IMG/VR virus record: IMGVR_UViG_3300042364_000225
Location: 1 to 35,122 of that record
From: a virus
Length of the DNA stretch: 35,122 bases
Direction: 5' to 3' (one strand)
Both the position numbers and the translations under genes were made by a program. Position 1 is the stretch's first letter. Every line of letters begins with the position of its first letter. The notes below the pieces were generated by a model. It did no database searches. It was not told the origin of the DNA and saw only the letters and a list, made by a program, of their open reading frames with translations. Positions 3,263 through 16,189 of this stretch are shown piece after piece.

Positions 3263-4686
3263 TGGGCATCATTTCGCGCATCTTCGGCCGCTCGAACGCA
3301 GCGCCCGCAGCGCCCGCGCCTCGTCGCGTGGTCGTTCGCGCGAAGTACGACGCCGCGCAGAAGACGCCGCAGAACGCGAAGCACTGGGCGGGCGCGGACG
3401 GTTACTCGCCCGCTGCGGCGCTGACCGACGCGATTCGGAAGACCCTGCGCGAGCGCTGCCGCTACGAGGTGGCGAACAACTCGTACGCGAAGGGCATCGT
3501 CTCGACGCTTGCGAACGACCTCGTCGGCACTGGCGCGCGGCTTCAGCTGATGATCGAGGACCGCGTGGTGTCGAGCCGTATCGAGGCCGCGTTCGACGTG
3601 TGGGCGACCGAGGTGCGCCTCGCGGAGAAGATGCGCCTCCTCCGCTCTGGCCGCTGCGAGAGCGGCGAGGTGTTCGCGGTCCTCGCCTCGAACGCATCGC
3701 TGCGCGGGCCGATCAAGCTCGACCTGCGCCTCGTCGAGAGCGAGCAGGTGCCGCTGATCGAGTACGACGAGTTCGGAAACCCGACGCGGTACTGGCTGCT
3801 CGACGCGCACCCCGGCGACAACGGCGCGAGCACGATGGCGGGGCCGACGATGATGACGGCGCTCGCGGGCTCGGGCAAGTGGATCGACGCCTCGCGCGTG
3901 ATCCACTACTTCCGCGCCGAGCGCCCGGGCCAGCTGCGCGGCGTCCCCGACATCGTCCCCGCGCTGTACCTGTTCGGTCAGCTGCGTCGCTACACGCTGG
4001 CGGTGCTCGACTGTGCGGAGACGGCGGCGAACTACGCGGGCGTGCTGCACACGGACTCGCCCGCCGGCGGCGAGGCGGACGATGTGGACCCGATGGACAC
4101 GATCGAGGTCGAGCGCAACTCGTTCATCACGCTTCCCGCTGGCTGGAAGATGGGGCAGCTCAAGGCGGAGCAGCCGACCACGACCTACGAGATGTTCAAG
4201 AACGAGATCCTCAACGAGGTCGCTCGGTGCCTGAACATGCCGTTCAATGTGGCTGCGGGCAACTCGAGCAAGTACAACTACGCGAGCGGTCGCCTCGACC
4301 ATCAGGTCTACCACAAGAGCCTCCGCATCGAGCAGCAGGTTATGGCGGACACGGTGCTCGACCGCGTGTTCTCCGCGTGGATGTCGGAGGCGATCCTGAT
4401 CTCGGGTCTGATCCCGCCGCAGCTTCGCAGCGAGTCGTGGCCTCACGAGTGGATGTGGGATGGAAACGAGCACGTCGACCCCGCGAAGGAGGCGAACGCG
4501 CAGGCGGTTCGTCTCCTCAACGGCACGACGACGCTCGCCGCGGAGTACGCGCGGCAGGGCAAGGACTGGGAGAGCGAGTTGCGGCAGCGCGCGCGCGAGC
4601 ACGCGCTGATGATCGAGCTCGGTCTCCCGATGCCAGGGCAGCAGGCGATGTCGCCTGATGAGCCCGACCCGAATGGAGGGGAGTGA
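3262..4686 (+). CDS. Portal protein, lambda gpB family
   Basis: A 474-residue protein forming the dodecameric ring at the capsid vertex through which DNA enters and leaves. Family-typical segments are NNSYAKGIVSTLANDLVGTGARLQ near residues 73-95 and, near the middle, EMFKNEILNEVARCLNMPFNVAAGNSSKYNYAS, which matches the conserved lambda-type portal core. The length is normal for the family. The start overlaps the previous stop (TGATG). The last bases contain GGAGGGG, which serves as ribosome site for the following capsid gene. Confidence 0.93.
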   Translation: MGIISRIFGRSNAAPAAPAPRRVVVRAKYDAAQKTPQNAKHWAGADGYSPAAALTDAIRKTLRERCRYEVANNSYAKGIVSTLANDLVGTGARLQLMIEDRVVSSRIEAAFDVWATEVRLAEKMRLLRSGRCESGEVFAVLASNASLRGPIKLDLRLVESEQVPLIEYDEFGNPTRYWLLDAHPGDNGASTMAGPTMMTALAGSGKWIDASRVIHYFRAERPGQLRGVPDIVPALYLFGQLRRYTLAVLDCAETAANYAGVLHTDSPAGGEADDVDPMDTIEVERNSFITLPAGWKMGQLKAEQPTTTYEMFKNEILNEVARCLNMPFNVAAGNSSKYNYASGRLDHQVYHKSLRIEQQVMADTVLDRVFSAWMSEAILISGLIPPQLRSESWPHEWMWDGNEHVDPAKEANAQAVRLLNGTTTLAAEYARQGKDWESELRQRAREHALMIELGLPMPGQQAMSPDEPDPNGGE

Positions 4687-4687
4687 C

Positions 4688-6640
4688 ATGCAGGACATGA
4701 GCGGAAAGCAGATCAAGTTCGCGGGCGGTCAGGTCGAGTTCACGGCTCCGACCGAGATCGACGCTGCGGCCGGCGACGAGTCGCCGAAGCTGAAGTCGTT
4801 CAGGATGCTGGCCTACACGGGCGGCGCGATGAATGTCGGCTGGGGCGTGCCCGTCGTGGTCGACCTCGCGGGCATGAAGTCGAGCGAGAAGGCGCGACCG
4901 ATCCTGCTCCAGCACGACCCGCTGCGGATCGTCGGCCACACCGACTCGGTCGAGGTGAAGAGCCTTTCGCGCGGCATGGAGCTTCGCGTCTCGGGCGTGA
5001 TCTCGGGGGCGAGCGACGCGAGCGAGAGCGTGATGCGCTCGGCCGCGAACGGCTTCCCGTGGCAGGCGTCGATCGGCGCGTCTGCGAATCAGGTGGAGTT
5101 CGTGGACAAGGGGGAGAAGGCGGAGGCGAACGGCCGAACCTTCAAGGGTCCAGTCTACATCGTGCGTTCCTCGGCGCTTTCCGAGGTGTCGTTCGTTGCG
5201 CTCGGCGCCGACGACAACACAAGTGCATCCGTTGCGGCGTGTGCCGCTGAGATCGCGGGCGATCCCGCAGAAGGAATCAAGGGGAACATCATGGCTGACA
5301 AGACTGAAGTCACCGCCGCCAATGGCGCGGCGGACGTGGCCGCAACGGTGAGCGAGATCCGCGCCGCCGCTGCTGCCGAGGCAAACCGCATCGCGTCCGT
5401 CCGCAAGGCTGCGGGCGGGAACGCCGAGATCGAGGCGAAGGCGATCGCCGAGGGCTGGACCTCGGAGAAGACCGAGCTCGAGGCTCTCCGCGCATCGCGT
5501 CCCGTGATCGGCGCACCCGCCGCTCACATCAAGGGCGATGACGCTCCGAGCTCCGATGTCCTCGTCGCCGCGCTCTGCAAGGCCGGCGGCATGCGCTCGG
5601 TCGAGAAGAGCTTCGACGCGAAGACCCTCGAGGCAGCCGACAAGCGCTTCAAGCGCGGCATCGGCCTTCAGGAGCTCCTGCTCGAGGCGGCGTGGGCGAA
5701 CGGCTACACGGGCCGCTCGTTCCGTGGTCACGAGCGCGAGGTGCTCCGCGCAGGCTTCAGCGGCCTGTCGCTCCCGGGCATCCTCTCGAACACCGCGAAC
5801 AAGTTCGTTCTCGAGGGCTTCAACGCCGTTGAGAGCTCGTGGCGCTCGATCGCGTCGATCCGCGGCGTGAACGACTTCAAGTCGGTCACCTCGTACCGCC
5901 TCAACGGCGGCTTCGAGTACGACGAGGTCGCAGCGAACGGCGAGCTGAAGCACGGCGAGGTGAGCGAGACGGGCTACTCCAATCAGGCCAAGACCTACGG
6001 CAAGATGTTCGCCGTCACCCGTCAGGACATCATCAACGACGACCTCGGCGCGCTGACCTCGCTCCCGCAGCGGATCGGCCGCGGCGCGGCACTCAAGATG
6101 AACAAGGTCTTCTGGGGCGCGTTCCTCGACAACGCCTCGTTCTTCACCGCCGGCAACGGCTCGCTGAAGACGGGCGCTGGCACCGCGCTCGGCGTCGACT
6201 CGCTCACGCAGGCGGAGCAGGCGTTCCTCGACCAGACCGATCCCGACGGCTCGCCGCTCGCGATCGCTCCGAGCATCCTGCTCGTGCCGACCGCGCTCAA
6301 CGCGAAGGGCGCGCAGCTCATGTCGAGCCTCGAGCTCCGTCCGACCTCGTCCTCGAAGGACGTTGTCGGCAACCCGCACGCGGGCAAGTTCTCGGTGGTC
6401 TACTCGGCCTACCTGTCGAACGCGTCGCTCACGGGCAACAGCGCGACGGCGTGGTACCTGCTCGCCGATCCGAGCGTGCTCTCGACGATCGAGGTCGCGC
6501 TGCTCAACGGCGTGGAGACTCCGACGGTCGAGACGGCAGACGCCGACTTCAACCTGCTCGGCATCCAGATGCGCGGCTTCCACGATTTCGGCGTGGCGAA
6601 GCAGGAGTACCGCGGCGGCGTGAAGATGGCCGGCGCCTGA
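4688..6640 (+). CDS. Prohead protease / major capsid protein fusion
   Basis: A 650-residue fusion. Residues about 30-175 resemble a prohead protease, with candidate catalytic His76 (LLQHDP), the WQASIGA segment at 125-131 and a serine in RSSALSEVSFVALGAD. Residues about 202-270 are a charged Ala-rich helical stretch like a scaffold or delta domain. Residues about 290-650 are a Mu gpT-like major capsid protein. Such fusions are known in other phages. The ATG at 4688 follows GGAGGGGAG; a start at 4658 would overlap the portal. An internal in-frame start at 5291 is listed separately. Confidence 0.9.
   Translation: MQDMSGKQIKFAGGQVEFTAPTEIDAAAGDESPKLKSFRMLAYTGGAMNVGWGVPVVVDLAGMKSSEKARPILLQHDPLRIVGHTDSVEVKSLSRGMELRVSGVISGASDASESVMRSAANGFPWQASIGASANQVEFVDKGEKAEANGRTFKGPVYIVRSSALSEVSFVALGADDNTSASVAACAAEIAGDPAEGIKGNIMADKTEVTAANGAADVAATVSEIRAAAAAEANRIASVRKAAGGNAEIEAKAIAEGWTSEKTELEALRASRPVIGAPAAHIKGDDAPSSDVLVAALCKAGGMRSVEKSFDAKTLEAADKRFKRGIGLQELLLEAAWANGYTGRSFRGHEREVLRAGFSGLSLPGILSNTANKFVLEGFNAVESSWRSIASIRGVNDFKSVTSYRLNGGFEYDEVAANGELKHGEVSETGYSNQAKTYGKMFAVTRQDIINDDLGALTSLPQRIGRGAALKMNKVFWGAFLDNASFFTAGNGSLKTGAGTALGVDSLTQAEQAFLDQTDPDGSPLAIAPSILLVPTALNAKGAQLMSSLELRPTSSSKDVVGNPHAGKFSVVYSAYLSNASLTGNSATAWYLLADPSVLSTIEVALLNGVETPTVETADADFNLLGIQMRGFHDFGVAKQEYRGGVKMAGA
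5291..6640 (+). CDS. Possible nested product: scaffold-capsid from internal start
   Basis: Codon 202 of the fusion gene is an ATG with its own good ribosome site (AAGGGGA, seven bases before). Starting here would make a 449-residue protein lacking the protease and beginning exactly at the helical scaffold-like stretch. Internal starts of this kind are established for lambda C/Nu3. They let a phage make many capsid subunits per protease. Whether the internal start is used cannot be read from sequence; the alternative is proteolytic release from the full fusion. Confidence 0.5.
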   Translation: MADKTEVTAANGAADVAATVSEIRAAAAAEANRIASVRKAAGGNAEIEAKAIAEGWTSEKTELEALRASRPVIGAPAAHIKGDDAPSSDVLVAALCKAGGMRSVEKSFDAKTLEAADKRFKRGIGLQELLLEAAWANGYTGRSFRGHEREVLRAGFSGLSLPGILSNTANKFVLEGFNAVESSWRSIASIRGVNDFKSVTSYRLNGGFEYDEVAANGELKHGEVSETGYSNQAKTYGKMFAVTRQDIINDDLGALTSLPQRIGRGAALKMNKVFWGAFLDNASFFTAGNGSLKTGAGTALGVDSLTQAEQAFLDQTDPDGSPLAIAPSILLVPTALNAKGAQLMSSLELRPTSSSKDVVGNPHAGKFSVVYSAYLSNASLTGNSATAWYLLADPSVLSTIEVALLNGVETPTVETADADFNLLGIQMRGFHDFGVAKQEYRGGVKMAGA

Positions 6641-7066: not shown

Positions 7067-7447
7067 ATGGGGAATCTGTTCGACAAGGGCAGCGCGCTCG
7101 TGGCATCGGCGATGCGCGCTGCCCTGTCGACGGACATCGTGTACGTGCGCGGCTCGGACAGCGTCAGGATTCCCGCGACGGTCGGTCGCACGGTGTTCGA
7201 GGTGGAAGACTCTCACGGCGTGCTGCGCTGGGAGAGCCGAGATTTCTTGGTGAGCGCGTGCGACCTCGTGCTCGGTGCGCTGCCGGTTGTACCCGCGAAG
7301 GGCGACCTGATCGAGGAGCGCTCGTGTGATGGGACGGTTCGCACCTACGAGGTAACGGCGCCTGGGCGTGAACAAGAATGGAAGTACGCGGACACGGCTC
7401 GGCTGATGATCCGCGTGCATACGAAGTTGAGGACGCAGACGACATGA
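7067..7447 (+). CDS. Head-tail adaptor / joining protein
   Basis: A 126-residue protein that probably links the connector to the tail. The sequence (LPVVPAKGDLIEERSCDGTVRTYEVTAPGREQEWKYADTARLMIRVHTK) matches the pattern of small beta-barrel head-tail adaptors: a 'P..GD.i......Y.V.....e..w...D......RIHt' ending. It sits between the decoration protein and the tail completion protein, as expected. Its stop overlaps the next ATG as ATGA. The identification rests on pattern and synteny. Confidence 0.6.
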   Translation: MGNLFDKGSALVASAMRAALSTDIVYVRGSDSVRIPATVGRTVFEVEDSHGVLRWESRDFLVSACDLVLGALPVVPAKGDLIEERSCDGTVRTYEVTAPGREQEWKYADTARLMIRVHTKLRTQTT

Positions 7448-7875
7448 CGGCGACACCAGCACAAGTCGGGGACGCGGTGCTGACGGCGGTGACGGGGCTC
7501 ACGCTGTCGAGCGCGTACACGGCTGTCCGCTCATTCTGGCCGGAGCGGAAGCCCGACGAGCTGCTGGCGCTGACGCTGACGGTGGTGCCTCGCGCGATCG
7601 AGCGCCGCGCGGAGTCTCGAGTGAACGAGCGCATCGACTTCGTGGTCGATGTGATGGTGCAGCGGAAGGTCGACCAGACGGCGCGGGACGCGGAGATCGC
7701 GCTCCTGAGCGCGGATGTGGAGAAGGTGGCGGACGCGCTGTACGCGCTCCGCGCGGGAACGACTGGATTCGTGTGCGTGGGCGTGACCATCGACCCGATG
7801 GTTTCGCCCGTTCACATGCAGCAGCATGGAGTGTTCACAGGGGTTGTCACCGCTCGGCTTCGCGCCGTCGGCTGA
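7444..7875 (+). CDS. Putative tail completion / terminator protein
   Basis: A 143-residue protein in the slot normally held by a tail terminator or minor tail protein, between the head-tail adaptor and the tail tube. It has alternating strands and helices typical of the fold (FVVDVMVQRKVDQTARDAEIALLSADVEKVADAL). The ATG at 7444 overlaps the previous stop; an upstream ATG at 7378 would overlap the adaptor gene by 70 bases. The function is inferred from synteny. Confidence 0.6.
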   Translation: MTATPAQVGDAVLTAVTGLTLSSAYTAVRSFWPERKPDELLALTLTVVPRAIERRAESRVNERIDFVVDVMVQRKVDQTARDAEIALLSADVEKVADALYALRAGTTGFVCVGVTIDPMVSPVHMQQHGVFTGVVTARLRAVG

Positions 7876-7891: not shown

Positions 7892-8320
7892 ATGCCTATT
7901 CGTGTTGGACTTGAAGGATCGCTGAGGCGAGGCACTGTTGGAACAGCGATTGCCACGCTGACCGCAGTCAACAATGTGAAGGACCTCACCCTCTCGATGG
8001 AGAAGGGGGAGGCGGACACTTCGACTCGCGCAGCCGGCGGCTGGCGCACCACGCTCGGCACGCTGAAGTCTGCGACGCTCGAGTTCAACATGAACTTCGA
8101 CGTGACCGACACGGACGTGGACGCGTTCCAGCAGGCGTTCATGTCGAACACAATCATCGCGCTCGCGGTGCTCGACGCGGCGAGCGGAGAAGGACTGATC
8201 GCGGACTGGACTGTGACGGGCTTCTCGATTGAGCAGCCGCTTGAGGACACGCAGACTGTGAGCGTGACCTGCAAGCCGGCGTACGTCTCGCGTAACCCGG
8301 CGTGGCACACCCCGACCTGA
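7892..8320 (+). CDS. Major tail (tube) protein
   Basis: A 142-residue beta-rich protein preceded by a very strong ribosome site (AGGAGGGATAAGAA), consistent with high expression. The segment NVKDLTLSMEKGEADTSTRAAGGWRTTLGTLKSATLEFNMNFDVTDTDVDAFQQAF is the typical tube-protein pattern: strand, acidic loop, 'R...GW...l..l....l.f.l..d..d...'. Location just before the chaperone pair agrees. It would polymerise around the tape measure to form the tail tube. Confidence 0.85.
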   Translation: MPIRVGLEGSLRRGTVGTAIATLTAVNNVKDLTLSMEKGEADTSTRAAGGWRTTLGTLKSATLEFNMNFDVTDTDVDAFQQAFMSNTIIALAVLDAASGEGLIADWTVTGFSIEQPLEDTQTVSVTCKPAYVSRNPAWHTPT

Positions 8321-8337
8321 TAGGAGGAATCTGAACG

Positions 8338-8814
8338 ATGCACGGATTCAAGGATTCAGCGGGACGATATTGGTCTGTTCGTGTGGATGTTGGCGCGGTG
8401 AAGCGCGTGCGGTCTGCGCTCGGCGTCGACCTGATGCAGGTGGCGGAGAAGAAGGACGCGGAGGGCGGGCGCGAGCCTGGGGTGTTGGAGCGGCTCGCGT
8501 CCGACCCCGTCCTTCTCGTGGACGTGATCTACGTCCTGTGCCGCGATCAGGCGAACGCGCTCGGCGTGACAGACGAGGACTTCGGTGCCGCGATGGCTGG
8601 CGACGCGATCGAACACGCGGTGAAGGCGATGCTCGGTGCGATCGTGGATTTTTTCCCGAACCCTCGCGAGAGAGCCGCGCTCAAAAGGTTGCTGGAAGCG
8701 GCGGATCAGGAAGCGGATCGTGCGCGCAGCAAGATGGAGGCGCTCGTCGAAGAGAAGCTTGCGCCGAGTCCTGCTGGCGGTTCGTGGCCGAGTCGGCGGC
8801 CATCATCGGATTGA
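8338..8814 (+). CDS. Tail assembly chaperone, upstream frame (gpG-like)
   Basis: A 158-residue, largely helical protein in the position of lambda gpG, between the tail tube and (beyond the fibre insert) the tape measure. It has a mixed N-terminal part (FKDSAGRYWSVRVDVGAVKRVRSALGVDL) and a long helix (RERAALKRLLEAADQEADRARSKMEALVEEKL). It probably holds the tape measure during tail assembly. Codons about 104-106 include a T TTT TTC heptamer in the correct phase for a -1 slip. The -1 frame is open from 8370 to 9038 and encodes the next domain. Confidence 0.7.
   Translation: MHGFKDSAGRYWSVRVDVGAVKRVRSALGVDLMQVAEKKDAEGGREPGVLERLASDPVLLVDVIYVLCRDQANALGVTDEDFGAAMAGDAIEHAVKAMLGAIVDFFPNPRERAALKRLLEAADQEADRARSKMEALVEEKLAPSPAGGSWPSRRPSSD
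8649..8655 (+). other. Candidate -1 ribosomal slippery site
   Basis: The heptamer T TTT TTC is phased with the upstream chaperone frame (gaT TTT TTC ccg), an efficient X XXY YYZ slip sequence. A -1 shift enters the frame that ends at 9038. It lies 53 codons before the upstream stop, farther than in lambda G-GT, and the first about 40 residues after the slip look like non-natural Ser/Gly-rich protein, so the site is plausible but not certain. Confidence 0.4.
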
Positions 8815-9038
8815 TTCCCGACGACTTCACGCTTCGCGAGTTGTCATGGATGCACGACGCGAAGATCCGGAGTGAATGGAACCATACGGCATCGCTGATG
8901 TGCTTACTGGCAAACGCACACAGCGGAGGTAAGGGCAGACGGTTCAAGATTGAGGATTTCCATCCGCTTGCGCGAAAGAGCAAGTCTCCCGAGATGCGGA
9001 TTTCAGCGAAGGCGCTGAAGGGAATCTTCGGACTGTGA
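8784..9038 (+). CDS. Tail chaperone downstream frame (gpT-like extension)
   Basis: An 84-residue protein if started at GTG 8784; a TTG at 8811 that overlaps the upstream stop is another choice. The convincing part is LIPDDFTLRELSWMHDAKIRSEWNHTASLMCLLANAHSG...FKIEDFHPLARK. This resembles the small protein that follows the chaperone in many tail operons ('...TL.EL..M.......EW...S.l...ian......k...p.DF.P'). No good ribosome site precedes either start, so it may be made as a -1 frameshift fusion or by coupled reinitiation. Confidence 0.65.
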   Translation: MAESAAIIGLIPDDFTLRELSWMHDAKIRSEWNHTASLMCLLANAHSGGKGRRFKIEDFHPLARKSKSPEMRISAKALKGIFGL

Positions 9039-9051
9039 GGAGCGATCGACG

Positions 9052-9435
9052 ATGACCTGCGACGCGATCAACACCCGACTCGTCCCCGTGTGGAACGCTG
9101 CGATCAAGGCGGGCGTCGACTGGCGATTCTCGATTCGATTCCGCGACGAGAGCGGTGCGCCGATCGACCTGACGGGCTGCGTGTTCCGCTGGGCGATGCG
9201 GCCGAACTTCGAGTCGGCGACGCTGACGGCGTCGATGTCGACCACGGACGGCCGGATCACGGTGGACACTGTGAACGGCGTAGTGTCGTTCCATCTGCCG
9301 AAGTCGGTGACGGTGAATCTCGCAGGTCGGTTTGTGCATGACTGCGAGATGGAGTGGACAGGCGGGCTGGTCGACTCGCTGTGGGAGGGCGCTGTCACGG
9401 TTGGTCGTGAAGCCGCGCGGGGGGTGATCCCATGA
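9052..9435 (+). CDS. BppU-like N-terminal domain protein (baseplate/fibre adaptor)
   Basis: A 127-residue beta-sandwich-like protein. The order 'G.dw.f.i.f.de.G.piDLtG..fr..mr', then an 'I......G.v.f.lp' strand and finally 'G.f.hd.e....gg....l.eG.v.v' matches the N-terminal domain of baseplate upper proteins that attach fibres. A ribosome site GAGGAGCGATC lies before the ATG. It overlaps the following fibre gene by ATGA, so the two are coupled and probably form one appendage. Confidence 0.6.
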   Translation: MTCDAINTRLVPVWNAAIKAGVDWRFSIRFRDESGAPIDLTGCVFRWAMRPNFESATLTASMSTTDGRITVDTVNGVVSFHLPKSVTVNLAGRFVHDCEMEWTGGLVDSLWEGAVTVGREAARGVIP

Positions 9436-10907
9436 GCGCGACGAACACTGGCTGGCGGTTGATGCTTCTCGACGCGCCGCAGGTGAACCTGTCGCTCGAG
9501 ACGAGCCCGATCCTGATGGAGTTGGTGTCTCCGGGGCCGCAAGGCGCAAGCGGATCTGCGTCGTCTGTGACAAGCGTGAACGGCGAGACGGGTGCAGTGA
9601 CGCTCGACGCCGCGGACGTTGGAGCTGCGGCTGCGGTTCACGGCCACGCGATCTCGGATGTCACAGGACTCCAGACTGCGCTCGACGGGAAGGCCGCGTC
9701 GAGCCACACGCATCCGACCACGGATATCTCGGGCTTGGGCGCGCTTGCGACGCTGAACAGTGTCGGTACGTCGCAGATTGCCGATGGCGCTGTCACGAAT
9801 ACCAAGATCGGCAGCAAGGCAGTTGATACTGCGAAGATCGAGAATGGCGCGGTACAAGCGTTGCAACTCGACACCAACGCAGTCGAGACGGCGAAGATCA
9901 ACAACAAGGCAGTTACGCTTGCCAAGTTGCAGGACATCGCAGGATCTAGCATCATTGGCCGTACTGCTGGAACCGGAACGCCAGAGCAGATAGCACTGTC
10001 TGCGGATTTCGTGTTGGAGGATTTGATTCCCGGCGGCGCTACGTTGTCGATTTCGACCAGAACTGCGCGATCTGTGCTCGGTCGCAGCGCCGGAACGAAC
10101 GGCGCACCCGCTGACATTGTGGCTAGCACGGATGGCCACGTACTGCGCCGCGCATCTGGGGTTCTTGCGTTCGGTACGCCGCCTGCTACGGGTTCAAGCG
10201 GTCAAGTGATGTTCAACGACTCCGGCGTAATCGCTGGAGATTCTGGATTCACCTTTGATCCGCTGTCAGATACCGTCACTGTTGGTTCGGTTGCGTTCAC
10301 TTCAAACGGAGAATTGATCCGCAACACGACGAACGGGCAAATGGACTTCATGCCTGCGCCCGTCGCCGCGAATGCGTTCGGCGTGTACATGGACTTCACG
10401 AGCTTCACGGTCGGCGCTCGCATGGGCGTGATCCGTTCCGACAACGGAGTGAAGAACCCAGCCGGGTCGTACATCCAGTTCGAGACGCAATTGGCGATCG
10501 TGTCGGACACGAACACCGTCTACGGCAATAACGCCGAATGCGTGATGCGCGTCACGACAACAGGCAACGACACATTCCAAATCGCGCCATCTGTTGCCGC
10601 CGGACGCAGCGCGGCGGTGGCGATCTGCAACCAATCACACGTAGGCGTGGCAAATCGCTCGCCCGCAACGGCGCACGCTGATCCGACGTTCTACGTGTAC
10701 TCAAGCGACGGAACGCAAGCGCTCGACTACGTGCGCATCTCGCACAACCAAACCGACGCAGTGATTGAGTCGGGCGCGGGCAATCTGAACCTCGTCAGCG
10801 CGGGCGACATCAACAACAACGGCAACAGGATACCGAAGGTGTTCAGCGGCACGACCGCGCCGGGCGCGGGCACTGGCACGGACGGTGACCTTTACTTCCA
10901 GTACTGA
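9432..10907 (+). CDS. Tail fibre protein
   Basis: A 491-residue protein with fibre architecture. A short collagen-like GPQGASG is at about residue 34, followed by the fibre repeat HGHAISDVTGLQTALDGKA / SHTHPTTDISGLGALA at about 74-110. A beta-helical repeat array of the type IADGAVTNTKIGSKAVDTAKIENGAV...AVETAKINNKAVTLAKL covers about 118-168. The C-terminal half is Ser/Thr/Asn-rich and beta-rich, ending in the GTTAPGAGTGTDGDLYFQ motif often found at fibre ends. It probably contacts the host surface. Confidence 0.8.
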   Translation: MSATNTGWRLMLLDAPQVNLSLETSPILMELVSPGPQGASGSASSVTSVNGETGAVTLDAADVGAAAAVHGHAISDVTGLQTALDGKAASSHTHPTTDISGLGALATLNSVGTSQIADGAVTNTKIGSKAVDTAKIENGAVQALQLDTNAVETAKINNKAVTLAKLQDIAGSSIIGRTAGTGTPEQIALSADFVLEDLIPGGATLSISTRTARSVLGRSAGTNGAPADIVASTDGHVLRRASGVLAFGTPPATGSSGQVMFNDSGVIAGDSGFTFDPLSDTVTVGSVAFTSNGELIRNTTNGQMDFMPAPVAANAFGVYMDFTSFTVGARMGVIRSDNGVKNPAGSYIQFETQLAIVSDTNTVYGNNAECVMRVTTTGNDTFQIAPSVAAGRSAAVAICNQSHVGVANRSPATAHADPTFYVYSSDGTQALDYVRISHNQTDAVIESGAGNLNLVSAGDINNNGNRIPKVFSGTTAPGAGTGTDGDLYFQY

Positions 10908-11331: not shown

Positions 11332-12756
11332 ATGCCAACAACCAACGGAAACCGCAAAATCCTCGACCCCAAGCGCTGGGAGTACATGACCCCAGCGCCC
11401 GCCGCCACGGCAGCAGGATCGTTCATCGCTTCTTCGCGGCACTATCGCCAGCAGCAACTTTATGTACAGGCGCAGACGGTCGCGTACCTCTACAACCCGA
11501 ACGAGGACGGCTGGGTTCAGACACCTAGCCCCGGCCTTGCGGCGGCGTTGGCGGCTGGGTCGTGCGGCACGGCGGGTTCGTTCTCCACTGGCAGCACGAT
11601 CGCTGTGGCATCGCTAACAGCGACGGCGGGTACGACCTCCACGATCACGACGAATCAGACGCTCGCCCGCGACCTTCGCGGGTACTCCATTCAAATCCTC
11701 GCGGGGGCGAACGCGGGCGTGACGCTGCCCATCGTGTCGAACACGATCGGATCAAACGCCGTCATCACCGTCGCCACGCAAGCGAGCGCGTTCAGCAATG
11801 CGACGGTCTACAGGCTTGTGACCCCCGTCTGGTATGTCGGCAACGGCGGCTCAACAGCCGCAGCCTCGTTCCGAAAGTACGACTTCGCGACCAACTCTTG
11901 GACGACGCTGGCGAACATGCCCGCATCCATCGGCACGGACGCGCGAATGATGGCCACGCCGTCTTGGGTGGACAGCGCGTATGTGTCGTTCGCAACTGGC
12001 ACGGCGACGAGCGCCACGGGAACCACGCTCGTCAACGCCGCGAAGACATGGACTACGAACCAGTGGACGAACTATCAGGTTCGCATCACGGGCGGCACTG
12101 GCGCGGGTCAGATTCGCACGATCTCAAGCAACACGGGAACGACGCTCACGGTTCCGACATGGAGCACGACCCCCGACTCGACCTCGGTGTACAGCATTGA
12201 GGGGAACGACGATTTCCTGTACCTGATCGGAAACGCCGCTGTCACGCTGTACCGCTACAGCATCACATCGAACACATGGTCTACGATCACGCCGACCGCA
12301 GCGCGCGGCGGCGCGCCGGGCGCGGCTTTGTCGGGTTCGTGGATTTGGGGTGTGACGCAAGCGGATTGGACGAACGAGAGCGCCATCCTCAACGGGCGAT
12401 TCCTCTACTCGTTCCGTGGCGGCGCGGGCGCGCAGATCGACCGCTACGACATCGCGCTCAACGCGTGGAACGCCGTCACATACTCGCCCGCCGTCGAGAC
12501 ATTCACCACGGGATCGAAGTGGATTTACGCGGGAGACTACCTGTACGGCACGAAGGAAGTCACAGGCCGATGGTTCCGCTACGACATCGCCCAGAGCGGC
12601 ATGGAAGGCATGACCACGATGAATGTCGGGCAGGGCACGGCCATCGTCGGAGACACGGCTTTCGATGTCGTCTACAAGGACGGCGCGACCAGCATCCCGT
12701 ATCTGCACATGCTGATGAACACCTCCACTATTCACGCAAGGATGATGGTGATCTGA
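11332..12756 (+). CDS. Kelch-like beta-propeller tail protein
   Basis: A 474-residue protein with repeated Kelch-type strands: 'asFRKYDFATNSWTTLANMPAS' (about residue 180), 'TLYRYSITSNTWSTITPTAA' (about 304), 'QIDRYDIALNAWNAVTYSP' (about 368) and 'WFRYDIAQSGMEGMTTM' (about 410). Two Ser/Thr-rich 'TxxTGTTLxxA...tGxxAGxxxxI' modules lie between them. Kelch propellers bind proteins or sugars, so this may be a receptor-binding or adhesin-like appendage. It follows two fibre genes. Confidence 0.65.
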   Translation: MPTTNGNRKILDPKRWEYMTPAPAATAAGSFIASSRHYRQQQLYVQAQTVAYLYNPNEDGWVQTPSPGLAAALAAGSCGTAGSFSTGSTIAVASLTATAGTTSTITTNQTLARDLRGYSIQILAGANAGVTLPIVSNTIGSNAVITVATQASAFSNATVYRLVTPVWYVGNGGSTAAASFRKYDFATNSWTTLANMPASIGTDARMMATPSWVDSAYVSFATGTATSATGTTLVNAAKTWTTNQWTNYQVRITGGTGAGQIRTISSNTGTTLTVPTWSTTPDSTSVYSIEGNDDFLYLIGNAAVTLYRYSITSNTWSTITPTAARGGAPGAALSGSWIWGVTQADWTNESAILNGRFLYSFRGGAGAQIDRYDIALNAWNAVTYSPAVETFTTGSKWIYAGDYLYGTKEVTGRWFRYDIAQSGMEGMTTMNVGQGTAIVGDTAFDVVYKDGATSIPYLHMLMNTSTIHARMMVI

Positions 12757-13815: not shown

Positions 13816-14454
13816 ATGTTCACGATGAAGGCCGACACATCCAAGTTCTTCGATCGCGTGATCGTCGAGACTGAGGTCGAGCGGATCGAGTTCGAGGGGC
13901 TGAAGCGCAACGCGCTCTACCTGCGTCGCGCTGCGCGTAACTCGATCCGTCGGCGGAAGAGTCCGTCGCAACCGGGTCAGGCGCCGCGCTCTGTTCGCGG
14001 TGATCTGAAGCGCGGCATCCAAGCGCATTACGAGCGCGGAATCAGCGAGGCGGTTGTCGGGCCTGTCAGGTTCGATTGGGGCACGGGCGCTCCGAATGTC
14101 CTCGAGTTCGGCGGCGACTCGGTGATCGACAACTCGGTGGTGCGCAATGTCGGCGACGGCGGCGAGATCCGCGTGGTGAGCGGTGCGGCGGCGGGCGTGA
14201 AGCGCGACTCGTCGGGCAAGTTCCTCCGCGCGTCGCAGCGGGGCAAGGAGGTCCGCCCCGGCGTGCGCGTCGTGTACGGCAAGATCCGCACGCAGGCTCA
14301 GGCCGACCGCGCGACGCGGATCAACCGTGAGATATTCGGGCCGCGCACGATCAGGGTGGCGGAGCGGCCGTTCATGGCGCCCGCGCTTGAGCGCTCGCTG
14401 CCGAAGCTCGCGCCGATGTGGTCAACGAGCGTAAGGGGAGGCGGCGATGTCTAA
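13816..14454 (+). CDS. HK97 gp10-like tail completion protein
   Basis: A 212-residue protein with the hallmarks of the gp10 family: an early helix with basic 'ARNSIRRRKSPSQPGQAPRSVRGDLKRGI' (the 'P..P....G.L..si' region) and a C-terminal 'ERPFMAPALERSLPKL', the classical end motif. It is longer than the usual 110-150 residues owing to an insert around residues 95-165. It lies just before the tape measure, separated from the other completion genes by the fibre and lysis cassette. The stop overlaps the next start by 8 bases. Confidence 0.7.
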   Translation: MFTMKADTSKFFDRVIVETEVERIEFEGLKRNALYLRRAARNSIRRRKSPSQPGQAPRSVRGDLKRGIQAHYERGISEAVVGPVRFDWGTGAPNVLEFGGDSVIDNSVVRNVGDGGEIRVVSGAAAGVKRDSSGKFLRASQRGKEVRPGVRVVYGKIRTQAQADRATRINREIFGPRTIRVAERPFMAPALERSLPKLAPMWSTSVRGGGDV

Positions 14455-16189
14455 GCAAGGCGGAATCAAGGCGGGCGCTGCGTACGTCGAGTTGTCGATG
14501 CGCGACAAAATCACGGAGCCACTTCGTCGCGCCGAGAAGCGCATGGAGTTGTTCGGCGAGAAGGTGAAGGAGATCGGGAGCGCGGTCGCGATGGCCGGCG
14601 CGGCTGTGACCGCGTTCGGCGGTGCGATCGTCGTCGCGGCGGCTGCGAGCGTGGCTGCGTTCGCGAAGATCGCGGGCGACTTCTCCGACCTCGCTGCGCA
14701 GACGGGCCTGACGGCCGAGCTGATGAGCGAACTGGAGATGGCGCTCAAGGACGCCGGATCGAGCGTGGAAGAGTTTTCCAAGTCGGTCGTGAAGTTGCGC
14801 CGCTTCATCTCCGAGGCGGCGCAGGGATCGAAGGGCGCGGCCGAGGCGCTCGGCAGGCTCGGCCTGACTGCGTCCGAACTGATCGACCTCTCTGCCGACG
14901 AGCAGTTCCTCAAGATCGCCGACGCGCTGTCGAAGGTCAAGAACCCGACCGACCGCCTCGCGCTCGCGATGGAGTTGTTTGGCAAGAGCGCGTACAAGTT
15001 GCTTCCCGTCCTCGAAGCGGGCGGCGCTGGCATCGACGAGTTCCGGCGCAAGGCGCGCGAGATGGGCTTCAGCCTGAGCGGCGAGACTGCCGACGCGGCC
15101 GACGCGCTCGGCGCGCAGATCGAGGTGCTGCAAGATCAGTTCGGCCGCATCGCTGTAGCGATTGGTGAAGCGCTTCTACCTGTGGCGAACGCCTTCGTCG
15201 CGGTGATGCAGGGGCTCGTCGGCCGCGTGATCCAGTTCATCCGCGAGAACCAAGGGCTCGTTCTCGGCGTCACGGCAGCGGGCGTCGCGCTGCTCGGCGT
15301 CGGCACTGCGATCGGCATCGTCGGCGCAGGGCTTGTGACGTTCGGCGTCCTCATCTCAACTACGTCTACGGTGCTCGGCGCGTTGGCGGCAACGTCCTCG
15401 CTCGTCGCGACGGCGTTCGCGGGAATCGTCCCAGCGGCTACTGCTGCATGGGCAGCGGTAACAGGCCCGGTGTTCCTCGCGGTCGCCGGCGTCCTCACGC
15501 TCGGCGCCGCGATCGCGTACGCGACGGGGCTGCTCGGAGCGGCGGCGGCGTCGTTCTCCGCGCTGTGGGATGTCGGCGTCGAGACGGCGAGCGGCCTTGT
15601 GGCGGCGTGGCAGGGAGTGACCGACGCGATCGCCGCCGATGATTGGAGTCTCGCGGGAGAGATCGCGGTGCAGGGACTCGAGGTTGCCATCCGGCGAGGA
15701 CTCGAGGGAATCGTTTCGCGCGTGGTGATTCCGTTCGCGGCGAAGGTCTACAAGATCATCGGGAAGATTCCGGGGCTTGGATCGGTCGCGGATTTCGGTG
15801 CGGCGCTGAGTGCATCGGGCGGGCTGATTGATTTCGGCGGATCGCAAGCGCAACGCGAGCTCGACGAGTTGACGAAGCGCGCCCGCGAAGCGCGTCGAGA
15901 CGCGTCTCCTGCGTCGCGTCCGATCGAACCCGATGACATCGCGCCATCTGCGCCCGCGCTCCCGGAATTGCCGGGCGTCGATGCTCCAGCTCTACCCGAT
16001 CTCGCCCCCGCGCAAGCGGAGATTCAGACTCGCCTCTCGGCGATGGGCGGTTTCAACGCGGCCGCGCTTGGCGGAATGTTCGGTGACTCGGGATCGAAAA
16101 TCGAGGAGCACACAAAGAAATCGGCGGAGTATCTACAGAAGCTACTCGAGCAAGGCAAACGGCAGCGCGACGCGCTCGTGTGGTCGTAA
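14447..16189 (+). CDS. Tape measure protein
   Basis: A 580-residue protein that sets tail length. It has N-terminal helices (RDKITEPLRRAEKRMELFGEKVKEIGSAV), a hydrophobic run at about 45-72, and the typical 'DLAAQTGLTAELMSELEMALKDAGSSVEEFSKSVVKLRRFI' region at about 85-127. A block of strongly hydrophobic segments spans about 265-375 and a Pro/Ala-rich linker about 485-530. At 580 residues it is short for a tape measure, which suggests a tail of roughly 85-90 nm by the usual 0.15 nm per residue. Confidence 0.85.
   Translation: MSKQGGIKAGAAYVELSMRDKITEPLRRAEKRMELFGEKVKEIGSAVAMAGAAVTAFGGAIVVAAAASVAAFAKIAGDFSDLAAQTGLTAELMSELEMALKDAGSSVEEFSKSVVKLRRFISEAAQGSKGAAEALGRLGLTASELIDLSADEQFLKIADALSKVKNPTDRLALAMELFGKSAYKLLPVLEAGGAGIDEFRRKAREMGFSLSGETADAADALGAQIEVLQDQFGRIAVAIGEALLPVANAFVAVMQGLVGRVIQFIRENQGLVLGVTAAGVALLGVGTAIGIVGAGLVTFGVLISTTSTVLGALAATSSLVATAFAGIVPAATAAWAAVTGPVFLAVAGVLTLGAAIAYATGLLGAAAASFSALWDVGVETASGLVAAWQGVTDAIAADDWSLAGEIAVQGLEVAIRRGLEGIVSRVVIPFAAKVYKIIGKIPGLGSVADFGAALSASGGLIDFGGSQAQRELDELTKRAREARRDASPASRPIEPDDIAPSAPALPELPGVDAPALPDLAPAQAEIQTRLSAMGGFNAAALGGMFGDSGSKIEEHTKKSAEYLQKLLEQGKRQRDALVWS

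Follow-up and report, generated by a model that had tools for sequence, protein, structure and literature searches.

A programmed -1 frameshift like that of the lambda G/GT genes, located at the slippery heptamer T TTT TTC (8649-8655), very probably lets a single message encode two tail assembly chaperones in the window, i.e. the whole stretch of 35,122 nucleotides analysed here. Most ribosomes would stay in the 0 frame and synthesize the G-like protein (158 aa). In a minority, the two Phe tRNAs would re-pair on TTT TTT after a slip of one base backwards; the product would be a G-T fusion in which residues 1-106 of G are joined to a T-like domain by a flexible linker some 40 residues long (predicted slip product 106 + 127 = 233 aa). 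By analogy with lambda, the core shared by both proteins would coat the tape measure protein, the T domain would recruit tail tube subunits and the slip rate would set the G:GT ratio. A -1 programmed frameshift in a tail chaperone pair was already the main reading of the original prediction, and comparison with relatives supports it. The features involved, all on the + strand, are as follows.

7892..8320, +: major tail tube protein, with which the T domain is expected to interact (phrog_1407, E 1.4e-12; PF06199, E 3.8e-8)
8322..8327, +: Shine-Dalgarno AGGAGG of the G-like ORF, read from the sequence
8338..8814, +: putative G-like tail assembly chaperone ORF, 158 aa, 0 frame (ORF, AGGAGG, tail tube gene upstream, protein model, viral-library matches)
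8647..8684, +: 38-base block near-invariant in the window's clade (12 distinct sequences), possible clade-specific stimulator
8649..8655, +: slippery heptamer T TTT TTC, proposed -1 slip site (in phase; TTTTTTN in 134/156 distinct regions; 2/87 Phe-Phe pairs elsewhere are TTTTTTY)
8655..8774, +: predicted linker of the fusion in the -1 frame, rich in Gly/Ser/Arg and unlike a protein sequence (translation; 0 stops vs 60 expected; composition)
8656..8814, +: C-terminal 52 codons of G, which only unslipped ribosomes would translate; helix predicted at 109-141, followed by a low-confidence tail (model, 0-frame identity)
8775..9038, +: T-like domain, -1 frame, stop 9036-9038, no usable start of its own seen (profile HMM, weak Phage_tail_T match)
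14447..16189, +: tape measure protein, on which the G part is expected to act (phrog_8462, E 1.1e-40)

Proposed slip site and frame relation in the window and its relatives

The heptamer is read GAT TTT TTC (8647-8655), i.e. Asp-Phe-Phe with F105-F106, in the ORF 8338-8814, and its phase is right for X XXY YYZ, as originally proposed for the chaperone frame. The + strand of the window contains no other TTTTTTC. A second in-phase site, T TTC CCG, begins at 8652, one codon later. Phe is encoded by 12 TTT vs 168 TTC in 15 chosen ORFs of the window, so that TTT at the slip site is notable. Between the slip and the upstream stop, 52 sense codons of the 0 frame are left, a count that agrees with the slip well before this stop (53 codons) given in the original prediction. 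The -1 frame, which had been described as open across the heptamer to 9038, is indeed open from just past the TGA at 8265 through the stop 9036-9038. As the window is GC-rich, this openness is by itself weak evidence, and its strength comes from relatives.

Scans for related loci gave at least 205 loci; two of these scans gave the best 80 each, and all family counts below refer to the loci listed. One of the two peptide patterns used in one scan contains Phe-Phe, which selects for this dipeptide and not for its codons. Profile HMMs, each built from 22 sequences of the upstream or the downstream part, were run on the 205 listed loci and the window in all three forward frames; therefore, in-frame fusions or +1 pairs would have appeared. 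None was found among the 198 listed two-part sequences (window and repeat fetches included), and the downstream part lies in the -1 frame in 198/198. The original prediction had envisaged relatives in which the two frames are clearly separate, each with its own ribosome site; the opposite was found, all 198 listed sequences keeping the -1 relation. The T-like domain, thought from the window to be conserved, was detected in 203/206 listed sequences, window included. Only the downstream part was recognised in 5 listed loci and only the upstream part in 3, each of which ends soon after.

Five loci (L016, L017, L018, L020 and L023) carry distant T-like domains without a recognised G-like ORF upstream, and a WNHTASLM motif occurs in the four of these domains that were read. 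The bacterial contigs that carry the upstream part (22 loci, mostly metagenome bins) are from Lentisphaeria/Victivallales, Kiritimatiellae, Planctomycetota, Elusimicrobia and uncultured bacteria.

Removal of exact duplicates from the 198 sequences left 156 distinct regions. Near-identical ones remain among them, and clusters were therefore used (71 at 70% protein identity, 39 at 50%). Conservation of the heptamer in relatives had been proposed as a check, and in-phase TTTTTTN is present in 134/156 distinct regions listed, the -1 frame being open from there in 133; it is found in 55/71 clusters at 70% identity and 27/39 at 50%. As a control, Phe-Phe pairs elsewhere in long forward ORFs of the 71 representatives were examined; of these 87 pairs, 2 are encoded by TTTTTTY, and Phe is encoded elsewhere by 728 TTT vs 2056 TTC. 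For L172, both this control and the stop counts given below start at a second T run that precedes its true site, the latter being one of these 2 hits; when both are swapped, the count is still 2. L126 has the heptamer, and a single downstream stop interrupts its -1 frame, which may reflect either decay or a sequence error.

The 16 of 71 representatives without TTTTTTN at this place are diverse. Four carry another in-phase canonical heptamer at or near it: A AAT TTT in L045 and L146, T TTC CCG in L095 and A AAA AAA in L137. Eight (L035, L100, L103, L158, L173, L179, L195 and L203) retain T TTY, which would still let the first tRNA re-pair. The A site of this group holds TGC, TCC or ACC, full re-pairing concerns the P-site tRNA only, and the -1 relation is kept; a weak or A-site-independent slip is possible in these loci. 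No slippery site was found at the usual place in three others (L062, L063 and L186; 3/71), which keep the -1 relation and the open frame, and L204 (1/71) has an early 0-frame stop.

The run of six T could also suggest that the polymerase, rather than the ribosome, slips and generates edited mRNAs. Six T are, however, short for transcriptional slippage, and the variants A AAT TTT (L045, L146) and G TTT TTC CCG (L095) allow tandem re-pairing without a T6 run. Furthermore, the ribosome-binding-like signal found upstream of the heptamer (see below) would be expected to act on ribosomes. Editing by the polymerase is thus hardly credible.

The -1 frame and the downstream domain

Ribosomal slipping at the heptamer makes a prediction about the DNA that follows it: if ribosomes read the entire linker in the -1 frame, this linker should be devoid of stops. 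In 55 representatives, the 2423 codons of the -1 frame between heptamer and domain include 0 stops vs 60.1 expected by synonymous resampling. In the same stretch, the +1 frame has 99 stops. Before the heptamer, the -1 frame has 120 stops in 5279 codons, spread over 43/55 representatives, and a -1 stop adjoins the heptamer in 4/56 sites. The 55 representatives are those with an open -1 frame, only L126 being closed among the 134 heptamer regions; without selecting for openness, the 134 regions with in-phase TTTTTTC show 1 stop (that of L126) in 5771 -1 codons. The joint probability of the stop-free frame was computed as though the related sequences were independent and is not taken as a p-value.

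The sequence of the linker is much less constrained than its openness. Over the stretch shared by both frames, identity reaches 80% for the 0-frame amino acids, 66% for the -1 peptide and 82% for the DNA (219 pairs), and the 0 frame is better conserved than the -1 frame in 207/219 pairs. This indicates that the G helix is the constrained reading and that the linker is passive. Its composition is near that obtained from resampled 0-frame codons. The original prediction found the linker poor-looking, and the -1 peptide is indeed Gly/Ser/Arg-rich and not protein-like; this is what a passive linker would look like, the same DNA being held mainly as a 0-frame helix. The doubt drawn from it, namely that a later slip or reinitiation might apply instead, is countered by the conservation of the heptamer and by the stop-free -1 linker.

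A later slip would take place at a non-canonical site near the start of the T domain and GT would then keep the 0-frame helix. Such a slip would fit the 0-frame peptide, which is protein-like until a few codons before the domain, as opposed to the -1 linker. Nevertheless, it leaves unexplained why the heptamer is conserved, why the -1 linker is free of stops and why stimulator signals are found at the early heptamer; moreover, inspection revealed no shared slippery site near the domain. It is therefore regarded as improbable.

Even less probable is the synthesis of the downstream domain as a separate protein, by reinitiation or internal initiation and without any frameshift. Two potential starts could be invoked, a GTG at 8784 in the -1 frame of the window and a Met conserved inside the T domain (ATG 8850 in the window). 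However, in the region that begins 60 nt upstream of the domain start and ends 9 nt downstream of it, 0/71 representatives have a start codon accompanied by a Shine-Dalgarno-like 4-mer, vs 51/71 for the starts of G, and 62/71 are devoid of any ATG, GTG or TTG in the -1 frame. The lack of a good start site that had been noticed for the window thus extends to its relatives. As for the conserved Met, a Shine-Dalgarno-like 4-mer precedes it in 10/67, and strongly conserved residues of the domain lie upstream of it. The 0-frame stop, for its part, has no fixed place relative to the T domain across relatives, which also speaks against separate initiation, and neither the open linker nor the heptamer would be explained by it.

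Possible stimulatory signals around the proposed slip site

For the preferred reading, a slip at the early heptamer, comparison across the family shows sequence signals consistent with two classical helpers of frameshifting, an upstream Shine-Dalgarno-like run and a downstream RNA structure. Pairing with the anti-Shine-Dalgarno upstream of the heptamer has a mean of -7.07 kcal/mol vs -5.20 for resampled sequences (difference -1.87, SE 0.21, n=55), the values at nine control positions ranging from -0.48 to +0.63. A Shine-Dalgarno-like pentamer is present 7-20 nt upstream in 35/54 representatives and absent in 19/54.

RNA folding in the 51 nt after the heptamer exceeds that of synonymous resampling (mean z -1.05, SE 0.13, n=54), with z values from -0.57 to +0.01 at offsets from +12 on and at all upstream offsets tested. 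The raw folding energy at a position 72 nt before the heptamer is as low as that just after it, and the codon-controlled test alone marks the latter. RNAalifold gave no common RNA structure on 27 relatives. For a named 9-bp stem, pairing is seen in 72.8% of cells vs 28-35% when the stem is slid, and its covariation is not above that of shuffles (173/500 as high); therefore, only the codon-controlled energy signal is claimed.

In the window itself, the bases upstream of the heptamer carry no GGAGG run and the sequence after it is predicted to be less structured than resampled codons (z +1.94). Neither helper is thus seen in its own clade, which leaves the slip rate of the window without support from them. 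The clade to which the window belongs harbours a block of 38 bases (8647-8684) in which one base differs among 12 distinct sequences. From the slip on, 1/12 codons are synonymously variable in this clade vs 32/104 before the slip. The block may be a clade-specific stimulator. A weak consensus hairpin is predicted in the clade and is weakest in the window.

The two proteins and the predicted C-terminal swap

The ATG of the G-like ORF is preceded at 10 nt by AGGAGG and the tail tube gene (7892-8320) lies directly upstream. The model of the G-like protein (pLDDT 85.9, pTM 0.74) shows a helix that ends at residue 105 and, after the slip point, a helix at 109-141. Among the best 50 of its 290 matches to viral models (BFVD), 10 are named tail assembly chaperone (E 0.012-0.48; Foldseek probability 1.00 for the best of them, E 0.012). 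Solved structures gave no match at E<=0.001, the best Z in a second comparison being 3.8. The 22 upstream members have no PHROG match, and their Pfam matches are scattered and weak (one or two members each, best E 0.0037).

The -1 domain of the window scores 17.4 bits (E 0.006) against PF06223 (Phage_tail_T), below the curated cut-off of 25.9, and is not assigned as a member of this family. Phage_tail_T is matched at E<=0.1 by 9/22 downstream members (best 0.00061), and two PHROGs are weakly matched by 2 and 1 of the 22. The model of the T domain is poor (pLDDT 72.7, pTM 0.48).

The G/T gene lies between the tail tube and tape measure genes, the latter not being adjacent. Indeed, the tape measure gene is found about 5.4 kb past the T domain, after 9052-9435 (phrog_1084), 9432-10907, 11332-12756 and others (to 14454). 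Elsewhere in the window, the head protease and the major capsid protein appear to be encoded by one ORF of 660 aa (4658-6640; phrog_4523, Phage_capsid_4 and weak Peptidase_S78), and the head-tail joining gene (7067-7447, PF25138) overlaps the next ORF (7378-7875) by 70 bases.

The arrangement is that of lambda gpG/gpGT in several respects: the tail tube gene comes first, G follows, T overlaps G in the -1 frame, and the X XXY YYZ site is in phase. An unequal G to GT ratio, which passages of PMC5009743 give as 30:1 in lambda, would be expected here too. The two systems differ by the site (GGGAAAG in lambda, TTTTTTC in the window), by the distance from the slip to the G stop (5 codons vs 52) and by the position of the tape measure gene, as H follows T in lambda, instead of lying about 5.4 kb further on. 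Furthermore, hhalign to the single lambda G and T sequences gave nothing significant.

The contractile-tailed phage P2 also offers a comparison. Its gpE/gpE+E' pair has a T-run heptamer (T TTT TTG), as in the window, and a downstream part without its own ribosome site, according to sections of PMC3931495; unlike in the window, its slip lies 6 codons before the E stop. The same -1 frameshift mechanism is attributed to lambda gpG/gpGT and P2 E/E+E' in parts of PMC5009743, PMC4493119 and PMC3931495. In an HK97-like tail chaperone cluster, two frameshift genes slipped at 6 and 7% in experiments, as stated in a portion of PMC3711429.

The distance between slip and stop sets the family apart. It amounts to 52 codons in the window, with a family median of 60 and a range of 46-109 (55 representatives), vs 5 in lambda, 8 in TP901-1, 6 in P2 and 6 in D3. 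A slip so far from the 3' end of G is unusual compared with these four reference phages. The D3 site (GGGAAAG) was taken from the sequence and not from the annotation, and a further in-phase AAATTTA, 85 codons from the stop of TP901-1 ORF43, was taken as chance. No perfect X XXY YYZ stands close to the end of HK97 gp13, although a -1 frameshift is annotated in its record, and this gene was left out of the comparison.

Outside tail genes, the -1 frameshift of Escherichia coli dnaX uses an upstream Shine-Dalgarno-like stimulator and a downstream stem-loop, and both types resemble the signals found across the window's family. The dnaX slip runs onto a stop and yields a shorter product, whereas the slip proposed here would open a further domain.

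With a slip 52 codons from its end, GT would not extend G but would replace its C-terminal third. From the protein model, such a C-terminal swap rather than an extension is the probable architecture of the pair: the slip would occur where the predicted folded core ends, and each chain would carry either the G-only helix or the linker with the T domain, but not the two together. The assembly properties of G and GT would thus differ too. This probable picture also includes a family found in Elusimicrobia contigs as well as in those of the Planctomycetota-Lentisphaerota group, together with stimulators that were apparently replaced at least once, in the clade of the window.

No match was obtained by tblastn against INPHARED with the upstream and downstream parts of the window, the upstream parts of L039 and L062 and the downstream part of L010 as queries. 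Within the paper library used, searches found nothing on this heptamer together with tail assembly chaperones and nothing relevant on such phages of Planctomycetes or Lentisphaerae. Because the slip is early, ordinary gene calling would be expected to end G at its own stop and either to miss T or to give it a false late start.

Globally, a family of mostly uncultured phages joins those that seem to build their tails by frameshifting. Its members form a natural series, with a slip site that was retained and stimulators that seem to have changed, and the putative swap architecture makes it possible to ask whether the fusion needs the end of G at all.
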